Part shown: positions 3,715 through 21,936 of the stretch, one piece after another | Position numbering within the stretch: the first letter of the stretch is position 1 | How the letters are laid out: each line of letters opens with the position of its first letter | From: a virus | Virus record (IMG/VR): IMGVR_UViG_3300007541_000243 | Location: 1-22,505 of that record | DNA: 22,505 nt | Direction: 5' to 3' (one strand) | Notes under the pieces: model-generated | What the model was told of the DNA's origin: nothing | Databases searched by the model: none | What the model saw: the letters and a program-made list of their open reading frames with translations, nothing else | Made by a program: the position numbers and the translations under genes

Positions 3715-3739
3715 CTAATGTACCAAAATGTTGTAAAAT
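3711..3739 (+). promoter_or_regulatory. Possible sigma70-like promoter before the HNH gene
   Basis: TTGACT (3711-3716), a 17-base spacer and TAAAAT (3734-3739). It overlaps the gp55 stop codon, and its spacer contains the left arm of the inverted repeat at 3719-3766. It could serve gp47/gp46 as well as the HNH gene. Confidence 0.45.
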
Positions 3740-3766
3740 CTAAATAATAATAAACATTTTGGTACA
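3719..3766 (+). repeat. Perfect 14-bp inverted repeat around a late promoter
   Basis: TGTACCAAAATGTT (3719-3732) is the exact reverse complement of AACATTTTGGTACA (3753-3766). The 20-base loop contains a late promoter motif. The right arm ends one base before the HNH start codon at 3768. In a read-through RNA it would form a strong hairpin over the start region. Confidence 0.9.
3739..3746 (+). promoter_or_regulatory. Late promoter inside the hairpin loop (TCTAAATA)
   Basis: TCTAAATA lies in the loop of the inverted repeat. With T4-like spacing transcription would start near 3752, so a late transcript would lack the left arm of the hairpin. Confidence 0.55.
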
Positions 3767-3767
3767 A

Positions 3768-4322
3768 ATGGATAATAAGAGATCAATCTCAAGAACTAAT
3801 AGGCTAAAATCAATAGAGGAAGGTAAAAAAACTTATGTTAGTGCTACTGCATGCAAACACTGCGGTAGTTACGAAAAGTATGTGAGTAGTTATGGATGTT
3901 ATCCATGTAATTATGAGAAGGGTGTTGAAAAACTTCTATCTGGGTGCTGTGATGGCTACATGACTAAAGAAAAATGGGCAGCAAATAGAGAAAGAAGAAG
4001 AGAAAAACTTAGAGAGAATAATAGAAAGTATTCTAAAGGCGAACGTGGTAAAGCAGTTGCTGCTGAAAAGACAAGGAGAAGATACGCTAGACTGAAACAA
4101 AGTATTCCTATAGAAATAACTACGGAAGACCTCCGCAAAATACAAGAAATTTATCAAGAAGCACAACACTTGACATCTACTACAGGAATACGTTATGATG
4201 TAGATCACATTGTTCCTTTGTTTGACGGAGGCCTTCACCATCCGGATAATCTCCAAGTTATTACTTACGATCAACACCTAAAAAAAACTGCTGCAGAAAA
4301 TAGTAGAAGACAATCAAAATGA
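3768..4322 (+). CDS. Free-standing HNH homing-type endonuclease with zinc finger
   Basis: A 184-residue protein from ATG 3768; a TTG at 3759 would add three residues but lies in the inverted repeat. The N-terminal part has two CxxC pairs (C29/C32 and C44/C47), likely a zinc ribbon. A very basic stretch follows (about 66-110). The C-terminal HNH site reads DVDHIVPLFDGG, HHPDNLQ, then H170, with D146/H147, N161 and H170 as the likely catalytic and metal residues. Such genes cut an allele lacking the insert and spread by recombination. It sits between gp55 and gp47 and overlaps gp47 by ATGA. No gene is disrupted here. Confidence 0.85.
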   Translation: MDNKRSISRTNRLKSIEEGKKTYVSATACKHCGSYEKYVSSYGCYPCNYEKGVEKLLSGCCDGYMTKEKWAANRERRREKLRENNRKYSKGERGKAVAAEKTRRRYARLKQSIPIEITTEDLRKIQEIYQEAQHLTSTTGIRYDVDHIVPLFDGGLHHPDNLQVITYDQHLKKTAAENSRRQSK

Positions 4323-7329: not shown

Positions 7330-7346
7330 TCGGGAGGTTTTTTTTT
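7321..7346 (+). terminator. Rho-independent terminator after gp46
   Basis: ACCTCC (7321-7326) pairs with GGAGGT (7333-7338) around a six-base loop that contains the gp46 stop codon, followed by a T run to 7346. Confidence 0.88.
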
Positions 7347-7353
7347 ATAAATA
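7346..7353 (+). promoter_or_regulatory. Consensus late promoter (TATAAATA)
   Basis: An exact T4 late consensus, directly after the gp46 terminator and 22 bases before the start at 7376. It isolates the next gene for late expression. Confidence 0.75.
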
Positions 7354-7375
7354 ACTAAAAAAGTATTTGTAAAAA

Positions 7376-7849
7376 ATGAACTCTAAGGAATACTGGGGAT
7401 TGATGGGGGCATATTCTGAAGTTTATGCTTCTACGGAACAACTTGATGAAGGCATGACGATGAAGGACTTCAAGGCAAATCGTAAGAAGAATGAGCGTAG
7501 AGCTGCTTCTGCTGATGCTAAATCTAGAGGTCATGTTGATAAGTTTACTGGAAAACCTTATAGTCCTGACGAAGCGCGCTCAAGAAGAAGAGGTATTCAC
7601 ACTCCAGAAAAATCACCAGAAAGAGATGCTGCTCGTGATGCTGCTGGAGGTGAAACTGGACGAGGTGGTAGATTGAGACCCAATAAAGTTCGTAAGGCAA
7701 AGGCACTTGGAGAACTTGGAGAGAAAGTAGATATTTACGACATCATCCTTTCACACTTACTTGATGAAGGATATGCTGAAACACCAGAAGCAGCAGAAGT
7801 CATTATGGTAAATATGAGTGAAGAGTGGAGAGATAGTATTATTGGTTGA
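7376..7849 (+). CDS. Conserved cyanophage basic protein, probable late/virion-associated
   Basis: A 157-residue protein. The N-terminus (MNSKEYWGLMGAYSEVYAS then EQLDEG) and the C-terminus (YDIILSHLLDEGYAETPEAA, then EEWRDSI) resemble recurrent end modules of several cyanomyovirus late proteins. The centre (about 30-110) is low-complexity and rich in Arg, Lys, Ala and Gly, suggesting nucleic-acid contact or disorder. No enzymatic motif is visible. Having its own terminator and consensus late promoter inside a block of early genes argues that it is made late, perhaps as a head or core component; this is inference. It is followed by a hairpin and the CobT-like gene. Confidence 0.75.
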   Translation: MNSKEYWGLMGAYSEVYASTEQLDEGMTMKDFKANRKKNERRAASADAKSRGHVDKFTGKPYSPDEARSRRRGIHTPEKSPERDAARDAAGGETGRGGRLRPNKVRKAKALGELGEKVDIYDIILSHLLDEGYAETPEAAEVIMVNMSEEWRDSIIG

Positions 7850-17507: not shown

Positions 17508-17549
17508 GAGGAGCACCTGGCAAAATCCAGGCTGACTCCTCATTTTTTT
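17508..17549 (+). terminator. Nested hairpin terminator after hsp20
   Basis: GAGGAG (17508-17513) pairs with CTCCTC (17536-17541), enclosing CCTGG (17516-17520) with CCAGG (17527-17531); a run of seven T follows. Confidence 0.88.
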
Positions 17550-17556
17550 ATAAATA
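17549..17556 (+). promoter_or_regulatory. Consensus late promoter of the GIY-YIG gene (TATAAATA)
   Basis: An exact TATAAATA overlapping the last T of the terminator, 24 bases before ATG 17581. Confidence 0.7.
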
Positions 17557-17580
17557 CCAATAAAGAATAGGTGTGATTAA

Positions 17581-18159
17581 ATGGAGTACTATACATATGC
17601 TTATTTTGATGAAAATAATATTCCTTATTATATTGGTAAAGGAAAAGGTAAAAGAGCTTGGGATAAAAATCACTCTGTTTTGGTGCCACCAAATGAAAGA
17701 ATAGTAATTTTGAAGAACAATCTTACGGAGGAAGATGCATTTAAGCACGAAATTTATTTAATAGAAATTCTTGGTAGAAAAAGTCAAGGAACTGGTATAT
17801 TGGAAAATATACATAGGGGTGGATGTCAACCCTCTGGATTTATACAGCACTCGGAAGAAACTAAATCTAGGATGAGATTGAGAAGACACAGTGAAGAAAC
17901 AAAGAAAAAAATTGGAGAATCTTTAAAAAGTCGCCCTTGTAAAGAAGAAGTAAAACAAAAATTATCAAAATTGTGGACCGGAAGAAAATTAACAGAGGAT
18001 ACAAAAAATAAAATGAGTAAATCTCATATGGGTAAAAAATTAAGTGAAGAGACAAAAAGAAGAATGAGTGACGCAAAAAAACAAATGAGTGAGGAGACGA
18101 AAAGAAAAATGAGTGAGAAGGCAAAATTGAGAGAAGCAAAAAAACGAGGAGAAATTTGA
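17581..18159 (+). CDS. GIY-YIG homing-type endonuclease with NUMOD3 repeats
   Basis: A 192-residue protein. The GIY-YIG domain begins YTYAYFDENNIPYYIGKGKG (about 4-23), with KRAW providing the Arg and HEIYLIE (56-62) the acidic residue. Residues 90-185 carry about six NUMOD3-like units of the form SEETKxKMS, a DNA-binding repeat typical of Seg-type endonucleases in T4-like phages. The DNA is A-rich compared with its neighbours, which fits a recent arrival. It is isolated by a terminator on each side and has its own late promoter. The stop codon lies in the loop of the downstream terminator. Confidence 0.88.
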   Translation: MEYYTYAYFDENNIPYYIGKGKGKRAWDKNHSVLVPPNERIVILKNNLTEEDAFKHEIYLIEILGRKSQGTGILENIHRGGCQPSGFIQHSEETKSRMRLRRHSEETKKKIGESLKSRPCKEEVKQKLSKLWTGRKLTEDTKNKMSKSHMGKKLSEETKRRMSDAKKQMSEETKRKMSEKAKLREAKKRGEI

Positions 18160-18557: not shown

Positions 18558-18756
18558 GGAAGTATCTACAGAACTTGGAGAACCTGATTGTAAGCTTATT
18601 GAACCATTTCTTTTAAATCCATCGGATGAAACTCTATCTCCTTGGTTGGTAAATGTTTCATCTCAAAATACATTTATGATTCATTCGGATAAGATTCTCA
18701 CAATTGTAGACCCAAAACCAACACTTCTTGAAAAGTATCAAAATTTGATTAAATGA
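18505..18756 (+). CDS. Sm-like small protein, copy D
   Basis: An 83-residue protein. It keeps the second half of the family pattern well: PFLLNPSDETLSPWLVNVSS with the PW dipeptide, then FMIHSDKILTIVDPKPTLLE and a final KYQ. The N-terminal SGE hairpin is replaced by a divergent stretch with LVLMNNQMLLSQI. It overlaps copy C by 53 bases and gp43 by ATGA, so it is probably coupled to polymerase translation. Confidence 0.7.
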   Translation: MTKILVLMNNQMLLSQIEEVSTELGEPDCKLIEPFLLNPSDETLSPWLVNVSSQNTFMIHSDKILTIVDPKPTLLEKYQNLIK

Positions 18757-20216
18757 AATTTTATACCAATGTGGCTCTGATTGGAAATCAGATTCTTTTT
18801 CGTGGTTATGAAAATGGTAAGCATGTAATGTATAAGGAGGAGTATTTTCCTACTCTCTTCGTTCCTTCTAAAAAACAAACTCAATACAAAACTCTGGAGG
18901 GTGATTATGTAGAAAAAATCTCCCCTGGTTCTGTTCGTGACTGCCGAGAATTTTATAAGAAGTATGAGAACGTAGATGGATTCAAAATCTACGGAAATGA
19001 TAGATACGTCTTTCAATACATCTCAGACAAATATCCCGAGGATGAAATCAAGTTTGATATTACCAAAGTCAAACTGGTTACAATTGACATTGAGGTTGCT
19101 TCTGAGAATGGATTCCCGGATGTTCAATCAGCTTCAGAGGAGATTCTTACAATCGCAATTCAGGATTATGCAACAAAGCAAATCATCACCTGGGGAATTC
19201 ATCCGTTCAATAACAAACAAAGTAACGTAAAATACGTTGAATGTGGATCTGAGCATACACTCCTTCAAAAGTTTATTGACTATTGGAAAGACAATACTCC
19301 AGAAGTTATTACTGGATGGAACATTCAACTTTATGACATCCCGTATATCTGTCGTCGTCTAAATCGGGTTCTTGGTGATCGGGGAATGAAAGACCTATCC
19401 CCCTGGGGTCTTGCAACTGAGAAAGAGGTCTTTGTTTCTGGTAGGAAACAGATTCAGTATGAACTTGGTGGAGTTACTCAACTAGACTATTTGGATCTCT
19501 ACAAGAAGTTCACCTATACAAATCAAGAATCTTACCGACTAGATTACATTGCTTCAGTAGAACTCGGTCAACAAAAACTGGATCACTCTGAGTTTGATAC
19601 CTTCAAAGAATTTTATACTAAGAACTGGCAAAAGTTTGTTGAGTATAACATTATTGACGTGGAACTTGTGGATCGTCTTGAAGAGAAGATGAAACTGATT
19701 GAGTTGGCTATTACTATGGCATACGACGCCAAAGTAAACTATAATGATGTCTTCTATCAGGTTCGTATGTGGGACAATATCATCTACACCGATCTAAAGA
19801 AACGAGGCATTGTAATTCCACCAAGAAATACAAATCAAAAGGACGAAAAGTATGCTGGAGCCTATGTAAAAGAACCTGTTCCTGGAGTTTATGATTATGT
19901 GGTAAGTTTTGACTTGAACTCCCTATATCCACATTTAATTATGATGTACAATGTAAGTCCTGAAACTCTTTTGGAAGAAAAACATCCAACAGTTACGGTG
20001 GATAAAATTCTAAAAAAAGAAGTGGATTTTGAGATGTATAAGGACTATTCTGTATGTGCTAATGGTGCAATGTATAGAAAAGATATTCTTGGATTTCTTC
20101 CTAGGTTGATGGAGAAGATGTATAAGGACCGAAAGATGTTCAAAAACAAGATGCTCAAATCAAAACAAAAACTTGTGGATATTGAAGCTGAAATGAAGAA
20201 ACGAGGATTGAAGTAG
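18753..20216 (+). CDS. 43: DNA polymerase gp43, N-terminal part (gp43A)
   Basis: 487 residues of a family B polymerase. It holds the whole 3'-5' exonuclease: Exo I DIE at 112-114, Exo II with N190 and D195 in GWNIQLYDIPYI, and Exo III YNIIDVEL with D302. Palm motif A DLNSLYP is at 387-393. It stops at TAG 20214-20216 in the fingers region, just after KQKLVDIEAEMKKRGLK. T4 gp43 is one chain of 898 residues; motifs B and C are in the second part beginning after an HNH gene. Alone this part cannot polymerise. Confidence 0.93.
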   Translation: MKFYTNVALIGNQILFRGYENGKHVMYKEEYFPTLFVPSKKQTQYKTLEGDYVEKISPGSVRDCREFYKKYENVDGFKIYGNDRYVFQYISDKYPEDEIKFDITKVKLVTIDIEVASENGFPDVQSASEEILTIAIQDYATKQIITWGIHPFNNKQSNVKYVECGSEHTLLQKFIDYWKDNTPEVITGWNIQLYDIPYICRRLNRVLGDRGMKDLSPWGLATEKEVFVSGRKQIQYELGGVTQLDYLDLYKKFTYTNQESYRLDYIASVELGQQKLDHSEFDTFKEFYTKNWQKFVEYNIIDVELVDRLEEKMKLIELAITMAYDAKVNYNDVFYQVRMWDNIIYTDLKKRGIVIPPRNTNQKDEKYAGAYVKEPVPGVYDYVVSFDLNSLYPHLIMMYNVSPETLLEEKHPTVTVDKILKKEVDFEMYKDYSVCANGAMYRKDILGFLPRLMEKMYKDRKMFKNKMLKSKQKLVDIEAEMKKRGLK

Positions 20217-20222
20217 TGGCCT

Positions 20223-20267
20223 CTCTCAATAAAATATGATATAACATAAATAATACTTTATTGGGGG
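20223..20267 (+). repeat. Inverted repeat around a late promoter, before the HNH gene
   Basis: CTCTCAATAAA (20223-20233) pairs over 11 bases, with two G-U pairs, with TTTATTGGGGG (20257-20267). The loop holds CATAAATA. The right arm contains the GGGGG that is the likely Shine-Dalgarno of the gene at 20272. Confidence 0.8.
20245..20252 (+). promoter_or_regulatory. Late promoter inside the hairpin loop (CATAAATA)
   Basis: Seven of eight bases match TATAAATA. Transcription would start near 20258, so the late RNA would lack the left arm and leave the ribosome site free. Confidence 0.6.
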
Positions 20268-20271
20268 TGTT

Positions 20272-20727
20272 ATGTTAGAAGATTTGGCAGGACAAACCTT
20301 TGGCAGGCTTACTGCTCTCTCTGTTGAAATCAAAGGAAAACGCACATATTGGTTGTGTAAGTGCTCTTGTGGAAATGAAAAATGTGTAAGGAAAGAGAAG
20401 TTGAAAAATGGTACAACTATATCTTGCGGTTGTGCCAGAAAAGAAAGAAATCATCAAGGAACCAAAACAAAACTTTATGGTAGGTGGAACTCTATGGTAA
20501 TGCGATGTCATAACCCTAATAGTGTTGGTTATCATAAGTATGGGGCAAAAGGTATAAAGGTTTGTGATAGATGGAGAACCTTTATAAACTTCTATGAAGA
20601 TATGGGTGATCCTCCAGAGGGTATGACTCTTGAGAGATTGGATAGTAATGGTGATTATTGTCCTGAAAATGTCATATGGGCGGATTATTTTACACAGAAC
20701 AACAACCGACCTGGATATAATAAGTAA
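20272..20727 (+). CDS. HNH homing-type endonuclease within gp43
   Basis: A 151-residue protein. The N-terminal GQTFGRLTALS module and the Cys cluster (C29, C31, C33, C38, C52, C54 in CKCSCG, CVRK and SCGC) likely bind zinc. The middle YGRWNSMVMRCHNP with GAKGIKVCDRW and FYEDMG, and the C-terminal MTLERLDSNGDYCPENVIWA (D124, N133), are typical of phage and intron HNH endonucleases of this type. It lies in a different frame from gp43 and separates motif A from motif B. A GGGGG ribosome site is 4 bases before the ATG. Confidence 0.88.
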   Translation: MLEDLAGQTFGRLTALSVEIKGKRTYWLCKCSCGNEKCVRKEKLKNGTTISCGCARKERNHQGTKTKLYGRWNSMVMRCHNPNSVGYHKYGAKGIKVCDRWRTFINFYEDMGDPPEGMTLERLDSNGDYCPENVIWADYFTQNNNRPGYNK

Positions 20728-20731
20728 AAAG

Positions 20732-20740
20732 TGGTATAAT
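20732..20740 (+). promoter_or_regulatory. Extended -10 promoter directly before the gp43B frame
   Basis: TGG followed by TATAAT (20735-20740). The same GTGGTATAATC occurs before gp55 at 3144. A -35 is not evident. It could transcribe gp43B and uvsX. Confidence 0.5.
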
Positions 20741-20919
20741 CGTACAAAGATGCCTTTGGGCTGGAGGAAGTTATTGGGTATTTAATCGGTGGGAACAAAC
20801 AGGACAAGGAAGATGAAATTGTAGTTTCAGATACTGACTACAGCAAACTTACGGATTCTCAACTTCTGAAACTAAGAGATCAAACACAAAAGGACATCTC
20901 CAAGTATAATAACTTTCAG
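20740..20919 (+). other. Fingers-coding segment of gp43 in frame with gp43B, without a start codon
   Basis: The gp43B frame is open from 20740 (after TAA 20737-20739) and encodes 60 residues including YKDAFGLEEVIGYLIGG, then KLTDSQLLKLRDQTQKDISK and YNNFQ. The end corresponds to the T4 segment before motif B. No ATG, GTG or TTG occurs in frame before 20920, so this part is translated only if a rare start, reinitiation, bypass or splicing is used. Confidence 0.7.
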
Positions 20920-21936
20920 ATGGCTAGAAAGATCCAACTGAACTCAGCCTACGGAAGTGTCGGCAATCAGTATTTTAGATACTATAAACTGGACAATGCC
21001 GAAGCCATTACTCTTTCCGGTCAGGTTTCTATCCGTTGGATTGAGAACAAAATGAATCTGTATTTGAATAAGGTTCTGAAAACGGAGAATATTGATTATG
21101 TTATTGCGTCTGATACTGATTCTATCTATCTTAATATGGGTCCTTTGGTTGACCGTGTATTCAAAGGAAGAGAGAAAACTAATGAAATCGTTGTTTCTTT
21201 CCTTGATAAGATCTGTAAGTTGGAACTTGAAAAGTATATTGAGAGTTGCTACCAAGAACTGGCGGACTATGTGAATGCATATGACCAGAAGATGCAGATG
21301 AAACGTGAGAACATCGCAGATCGTGGCATCTGGACAGCAAAGAAAAGATACATCCTCAATGTCTGGGATAGTGAAGGTGTTCGTTATGAGGAACCCAAAC
21401 TGAAGATGATGGGAATTGAAGCTGTCAAATCATCTACTCCAGCACCTTGTCGCAAGATGCTCAAGGATGGTCTCAAACTGATGATGTCTGGTACTGAAGA
21501 TGATGTGATTGATTACATTGATAAGTGTAGAAAGGAGTTTAACAAACTCTCTCCGGAGGATATCTCCTTCCCACGGTCAGCATCTGATATTCAAAAGTAC
21601 AAATCTTCGTCAGAAATTTACATCAAAGGAACTCCCATTCACGTTAGAGGAGCTCTTCTGTATAATCACTACATTAAGGAAAGGAACCTAACGAATAAAT
21701 ATTCACTTATTCAGAATGGAGAAAAGGTTAAATTTTGTTATCTCAAAAAACCAAATCCATTTCACGAGAATGTAATCTCATACATTCAAGATTTTCCAAG
21801 AGAACTTGGAATTGACAAATACATTGATTATGACCTACAATTCGAGAAATCATTTCTAGAACCTATGAAATCTATTCTTGATTCTATCGGATGGAAAGTG
21901 GAAAAAACTATCAACCTTAGCTCATTTTTTGAATGA
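20920..21936 (+). CDS. 43: DNA polymerase gp43, C-terminal part (gp43B)
   Basis: 338 residues from the first ATG, at 20920. It holds motif B KIQLNSAYG (4-12), motif C ASDTDS (63-68), the KKRY motif in WTAKKRYILNVWDSEG, and a thumb domain. The end LSSFFE resembles the clamp-binding C-terminus of T4 gp43 (SLFDMFDF). No Shine-Dalgarno precedes 20920. Starting there leaves only three residues before motif B and drops the fingers helix coded upstream. The stop overlaps uvsX by ATGA. Non-covalent assembly with gp43A, as reported for split gp43 in some Aeromonas phages, is the likely route to an active enzyme. Confidence 0.88.
   Translation: MARKIQLNSAYGSVGNQYFRYYKLDNAEAITLSGQVSIRWIENKMNLYLNKVLKTENIDYVIASDTDSIYLNMGPLVDRVFKGREKTNEIVVSFLDKICKLELEKYIESCYQELADYVNAYDQKMQMKRENIADRGIWTAKKRYILNVWDSEGVRYEEPKLKMMGIEAVKSSTPAPCRKMLKDGLKLMMSGTEDDVIDYIDKCRKEFNKLSPEDISFPRSASDIQKYKSSSEIYIKGTPIHVRGALLYNHYIKERNLTNKYSLIQNGEKVKFCYLKKPNPFHENVISYIQDFPRELGIDKYIDYDLQFEKSFLEPMKSILDSIGWKVEKTINLSSFFE

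Follow-up and report, generated by a model that had tools for sequence, protein, structure and literature searches.

The stretch analysed here, hereafter the window, is a 22,505-base virus record (IMG/VR IMGVR_UViG_3300007541_000243) that represents a fragment of the replication region of a T4-like cyanophage. Its genes, assigned by similarity to Synechococcus phage DSL-LC02, run in the order uvsW, gp55, HNH, gp47, gp46 and, further on, gp45, gp44, gp62, regA, hsp20, GIY-YIG-like, gp43, HNH, gp43 and uvsX. The DNA polymerase gene gp43 is thus present as two halves, 43A and 43B, and between them lies a free-standing HNH gene, starting at 20272, whose leader can fold into a hairpin around a late-promoter-like motif. 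The product of this gene matches PHROG 374, 3377 and 2081, all annotated as HNH endonuclease, while a Pfam search returned no model above the cut-off and sequence comparison found no relatives in the PDB. The features discussed below are collected in Table 1.

The core of the hairpin consists of 11 contiguous pairs, two of them G-U, formed between CTCTCAATAAA (20223-20233) and TTTATTGGGGG (20257-20267), and the extended stem is paired at 15 of 17 positions. The 23-nt loop (20234-20256) contains CATAAATA at 20245-20252, and the 3' arm carries a GGGGG ribosome site, separated by four bases from the HNH start codon (ATG, 20272-20274); by inspection, GGGGGUG could pair with CACCUCC of 16S ribosomal RNA with one G-U. 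The minimum-free-energy fold includes the 20223-20267 helix, and the stem spans the ribosome site of an endonuclease gene, as it does in genes of the I-TevI, segB and mobE type. Direct reading of the sequence confirms the 11-pair stem, the enclosed motif and the GGGGG in the 3' arm that the initial annotation had described. An intrinsic terminator at the same hairpin was also considered and was rejected, given that the hairpin has no T run and none is called there.

Read together with its homologues, the 20223-20267 hairpin is likely, with a probability of about 0.74, to act as a switch that sequesters the ribosome site and restricts expression of the mobile HNH gene to late infection. RNA reading through from the replication genes, with 43A immediately upstream, would fold into the hairpin and hide the ribosome site; late in infection, a gp55-type polymerase would initiate within the loop at CATAAATA, at about 20258, and the resulting RNA, lacking the 5' arm, would be translatable. 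The endonuclease would in that case be made when many genome copies are present, and a cut empty 43A/43B junction could be repaired from an occupied one. We infer the individual steps from the arrangement of the sequence: read-through RNA, its masking, initiation and translation late in infection, and homing into the TAATG junction described below. Observed directly are the layout itself, its retention by every homologue found at the site, the mobility of the unit and the recurrence of the same, covarying layout on a second HNH gene. The layout, the assignment of an HNH gene within gp43 and the logic of the reading given in the initial annotation all hold.

The first line of comparative evidence comes from the gp43 site itself. 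Two pattern scans over 2.9 million viral contigs and two protein searches yielded a small, consistent set of homologues. Thirteen contigs have the leader, which always follows 43A and lies directly before a 20272-type HNH gene; a blastn search for it in cultured phage genomes returned nothing relevant. These leaders fall into six distinct versions from different phages (window/L007, the L008 group, L211, the L138 group, L205 and L206), all of which share TATAA(T/C)ATAAATAATACTTTAT. Five of the six carry an exact copy of the T4-type TATAAATA, in place of which the window has CATAAATA, and in all six the predicted promoter is placed so that its RNA would lose the 5' arm. Of 17 stem positions, 15 are paired in window/L007, 14 in L008, 13 in L211, 15 in L138, 14 in L205 and 16 in L206. 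Homologues that keep the gene without the stem, which had been named as grounds for abandoning the proposal, were absent among those found, every homologue at the site having both promoter and stem. Alignment of the leaders, which the initial annotation had proposed as a check for compensatory changes, shows one two-sided exchange: at the innermost position next to the G-run the window has A-U, L138, L205 and L206 have U-A, and L008 and L211 have U-U. No other pair has changed on both sides, because the 3' arm hardly varies. The predicted cost of opening the RNA from the ribosome site to the AUG is lower in late RNA for five of the six leaders at every 3' length tested. In the window it amounts to 9.1-10.3 kcal/mol in read-through RNA against 0.3-8.1 kcal/mol in late RNA, with ranges that depend on the 3' length of the RNA folded, and the masking predicted for the window allele is modest.

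Equally important is the second HNH gene of the window, at 3768 between gp55 and gp47, which is unrelated to the first and displays the same layout far more strongly, a point that the initial annotation had missed. Its stem of 14 perfect pairs surpasses all shuffled sequences (z -4.40, 0/200). Genes of this type occupy the gp55/gp47 junction in 66 of 75 loci, the remaining loci being mostly cut short, and in the IMG/VR homologues TATAAATA nearly always starts 29 nt before the ATG, within a hairpin loop, and GGAG is part of the 3' arm of that hairpin; CTAAATA takes the place of TATAAATA in the window copy, which is also without the GGAG of most homologues. The 35 leaders compared, among which 19 arm pairs are distinct, have 94.7% of their cells paired, none of 10,000 whole-arm swaps pairs equally well, and two-sided compensatory changes occur at five pairs (2, 3, 6, 7 and 9), with some members, such as L268 and L301, imperfect. 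This comparison is good evidence for selection, on cyanophage HNH genes, of RNA pairing around a promoter in the loop, and the strength of the covariation raises the probability that the hairpin at 20223 works alike. Further HNH-type genes with other N termini, and with TATAAATA in the loop of a stem preceding the ATG, were seen in L267, L269, L289 and L313 (near 1355-1373) and in L284 (near 3375).

The identity of the loop motif as a late promoter is suggested by its match to NATAAATA, the late motif of S-PM2 and Syn9, and homologues of g55, g33 and g45 are present in all cyanomyoviruses (PMC2984593). In the related cyanophage DSL-LC02, TATAAATA or CATAAATA stands 24-59 nt before late structural genes. 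Of its 20 copies of TATAAATA, 19 lie on the main coding strand; several precede gp18, gp20, gp22 and genes for the baseplate wedge or tail fibres, and CATAAATA precedes gp13 and tail fibres. The three annotated endonuclease genes of DSL-LC02 all have TATAAATA 29-32 nt upstream, and all three endonuclease-like genes of the window likewise have a late-type motif 27-32 nt before the ATG, at 27 nt for the 20272 gene and, in the less typical form CTAAATA, at 28 nt for the gene at 3768. By count in the window, NATAAATA is not above chance: ATAAATA by itself is at chance density (7 seen, 5.0 expected), and all seven occurrences are on the coding strand. Stems around the structural-gene motifs are weaker, with scores of 5-9 that are mostly at chance level, against 12 at 20272 and 14 at 3768; the exception is one tail-fibre site (P 0.007).

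Two occurrences of TATAAATA in the window adjoin terminator-like structures. One lies 32 nt upstream of the GIY-YIG/NUMOD3 endonuclease-like gene at 17549-18159, right after a terminator-like stem and T run; the other (7346-7376) overlaps the T run of such a stem, 30 nt upstream of an open reading frame (ORF) at 7376.

Table 1. Features of the window at the gp43 insert and at the second HNH gene
Feature	Position	Strand	Basis
Second hairpin; arms 3719-3732 / 3753-3766, 14 perfect pairs, CTAAATA 3740-3746 in loop	3719..3766	+	fold, homologue leaders, arm-swap test
HNH gene of the gp55/gp47 junction, the second of the window; endonuclease VII-like product	3768..4322	+	PHROG 1035 and 333; conserved position
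gp43A, N-terminal part of family-B DNA polymerase, stop TAG 20214-20216	18753..20216	+	Pfam DNA_pol_B_exo1 + DNA_pol_B; alignment to unsplit gp43
Hairpin 5' arm (11-pair core 20223-20233)	20223..20239	+	sequence, leader comparison, fold
TATAAC, sigma70-type -10-like hexamer, replaced by TATAAT in the remaining five leaders; alternative promoter element	20240..20245	+	leader comparison; inference
Late-promoter-like motif CATAAATA in loop, replaced by TATAAATA in the five remaining distinct leaders; start predicted at 20258	20245..20252	+	sequence; match to S-PM2/Syn9 late motif NATAAATA
Hairpin 3' arm (core 20257-20267), with little or no variation among the six leaders	20251..20267	+	leader comparison
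GGGGG ribosome site within 3' arm	20263..20267	+	sequence
Free-standing HNH endonuclease gene, 151 aa, homing-endonuclease-like	20272..20727	+	PHROG 374 HNH endonuclease E 8.7e-60; mobility pattern
Sigma70-type promoter TGGATA-17-TATAAT with TG extension, insert 3' end, likely for 43B	20712..20740	+	promoter scan, 10 of 12; best of its stretch
GGAGG ribosome site for 43B	20763..20767	+	kept in both relics and in every insert-bearing allele read as far as this end
gp43B, C-terminal part of polymerase; start codon probably ATT 20773-20775 (ATG in insert-free relatives)	20773..21936	+	allele comparison; no upstream in-frame ATG/GTG/TTG back to stop

Several observations weigh against a late switch at the gp43 site. 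The window allele has C at position -13 of the motif and GGGGG, rather than GGAGG, as its ribosome site, which in the late RNA is predicted to re-pair partly with downstream sequence; L211 gives mixed results across lengths and little predicted gain; the homologues at the site are few and related, and among the six leaders just one pair has changed on both sides. Energy tests that preserve the composition of the pyrimidine-rich 5' segment are, moreover, not significant for the window allele alone, and this bears on a rather unlikely alternative, in which the stem is incidental, a pyrimidine-rich stretch facing a G-rich ribosome site in AT-rich DNA, and conservation reflects the promoter and recent transfer only. 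The near-invariance of the 3' arm is compatible with such an origin, in that promoter and ribosome site could explain most of the conservation, and the leaders do travel together with the gene. Fold statistics for the window are mixed: the 59-nt intergenic stretch (20217-20275) folds better than its shuffles (z -2.31, 3/200), and the best stem around the motif is equalled in 0.4% of shuffles of the 30 nt upstream, yet a 101-nt stretch is unremarkable (z -0.79), so that significance depends on the stretch folded and the window hairpin by itself provides no more than moderate support. The comparative evidence is the stronger: pairing of the 5' arm is kept in all six leaders despite changes, including the A-U to U-A exchange, L206 has lost just one of its 17 pairs, and covariation is strong in the second family, which is independent.

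An alternative that we regard as unlikely assigns the loop promoter to the host type, with TATAAT/TATAAC at 20240-20245 serving as a sigma70 -10 element; open RNA would then be made early, and the hairpin would silence only read-through RNA. The exact TATAAT of five of the six leaders fits this proposal, as does TTGCCC located 17 nt upstream of it in L138, and RNA begun about 7 nt past the hexamer would likewise be without the 5' arm. However, the window, L008 and L211 have a poor -35 element or none, the TATAAC of the window is weaker, and a simple promoter scan makes no call there, whereas the ATAAATA part is at least equally conserved and its distance of 27 nt to the ATG matches that of late genes. 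That the inverted repeat is instead a DNA operator for the HNH protein or another regulator, in the way that I-TevI represses its own late promoter, is very unlikely: the repeat does enclose a promoter, but similarity between the leader and the insert-free site is not significant (P 0.19-0.49), and in the 3768 family pairing persists although the sequence of the arms has drifted, an indication of RNA pairing.

At the region equivalent to the insertion site, cyanophages with a continuous gp43 have a short stretch by alignment. Close relatives in IMG/VR have a split gp43 although they carry no insert, the two frames overlapping as the stop/start TAATG (e.g. CTGAAATAATGGGATATC in L073). The window insert sits exactly in this junction and measures 556 bp by the gap to insert-free alleles, as determined on the identical L007. 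The initial annotation had overlooked that the split predates the insertion; the HNH gene need not have caused it. Occupied and empty alleles of one site coexist, as in mob-type genes, and the gene moves between backgrounds: between L138 and L206 the HNH gene is 99.8% identical while 43A (400 nt) is 77.4% identical, and between L138 and L204 the corresponding values are 98.9% for the HNH gene, 99.8% for 43A and 78.3% for 43B. Movement of gene and leader together fits the expectation for a homing endonuclease. Other alleles hold different inserts at the 43A/43B junction, from 77 to about 1940 bp, which marks the junction as a hot spot.

At this junction L044, L049, L055, L056, L150, L159, L165, L072, L128, L131 and ACG-2014f (L003, L004) have numerous unrelated inserts, which measure about 100 to 1940 bp; the largest of them could be other endonucleases or inteins. 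A group I intron around the HNH gene was considered and rejected, as there is no Rfam intron match even at E 10; it is further disfavoured by relics of the 77-bp class, which are too short, and by the stop/start overlap of insert-free alleles. Restoration of a continuous gp43 by splicing or frameshifting was likewise rejected, because the frame is interrupted in insert-free alleles too.

Near the 3' end of the insert, at the place of the sigma70-type promoter of the window, L138, L203, L204 and L142 have TTGACA-17-TATTAT/TACTAT, and 43B begins as GGAGG-N5-ATT-GG in insert-bearing alleles but as TA-ATG-GG in insert-free ones; both relics, and every HNH-bearing allele read as far as this end, have ATT in place of ATG. 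In the window, no in-frame ATG, GTG or TTG precedes the ATT back to the stop, and the first in-frame ATG of 43B, at 20920, would cost about 50 residues; in L008 and the L138 group an in-frame GTG lies 15 nt upstream of the ATT, so that AUU is there the likeliest rather than the sole possible start. Two short relics, in L142 (2414-2501) and L213 (near 4121 of the reverse complement), have lost the HNH gene and kept the promoter-like sequence, the GGAGG and the ATT for 43B, which suggests that the tail is retained after endonuclease loss. The insert therefore probably supplies the promoter, ribosome site and AUU start of 43B. A more far-reaching and tentative proposal, which we hold to be possible though not probable, is that the insert is a self-contained cassette whose endonuclease is silenced early by the hairpin and which, having replaced the TAATG coupling of gp43A and gp43B by its own host-type promoter, GGAGG and AUU, makes an essential gene dependent on it and leaves its 3' tail behind once the endonuclease is lost.

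Hairpin-gated late expression is established for I-TevI and has been described for segB and mobE (PMC2988022), and the window leader is a well-supported candidate for a new cyanophage member of this class. The initial annotation had presented the arrangement as known for I-TevI and new on an HNH gene, a contrast that was overstated, as mobE of Aeh1 and I-TevIII, both HNH, and segB already have it (PMC2988022). The closest parallel is mobE of Aeromonas phage Aeh1 (Gibb and Edgell, reviewed in PMC2988022), a free-standing HNH gene in a split replication-type gene, with an RNA hairpin over its ribosome site and a late promoter whose RNA should be without the hairpin. There, however, the host gene is nrdA and was split by the mobE insertion itself, whereas gp43 was already split by TAATG; in the window, moreover, the loop encloses the entire promoter, and 43B is preceded, at the end of the insert, by a promoter, a ribosome site and a probable AUU start of its own. 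I-TevI, I-TevII and I-TevIII of T4 share a hairpin that closes the ribosome site on early or middle RNA and an adjacent late (or middle) promoter, but are encoded in group I introns, whereas in the window no intron was found and insert-free relatives have no continuous frame. The segB gene of T4 is similarly free-standing, with a hairpin and a predicted late promoter, but specifies a GIY-YIG enzyme at an intergenic site. In Aeromonas phages 25 and 44RR, seg43(25) is an endonuclease gene associated with a gene 43 split into 43A and 43B; it differs in encoding a segD-like enzyme, in a hairpin placed upstream of the ribosome site rather than over it, and in its spacer. The less ordinary parts of the gp43 insert are the TAATG site and the AUU tail. 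No report of the loop-promoter hairpin arrangement in a cyanophage was found in the literature searched, which is weak evidence of absence.

Altogether, comparison among uncultured cyanophages now supports an arrangement previously described in T4 and Aeromonas phages, and does so for two HNH genes that are unrelated and occupy different sites. This suggests that hairpin gating is repeatedly evolved or spread by phages. The leaders constitute a concrete, testable set that contains natural compensatory variants. At the gp43 site, a mobile gene resides in an essential, already split polymerase gene and has probably taken over the expression of its second half.
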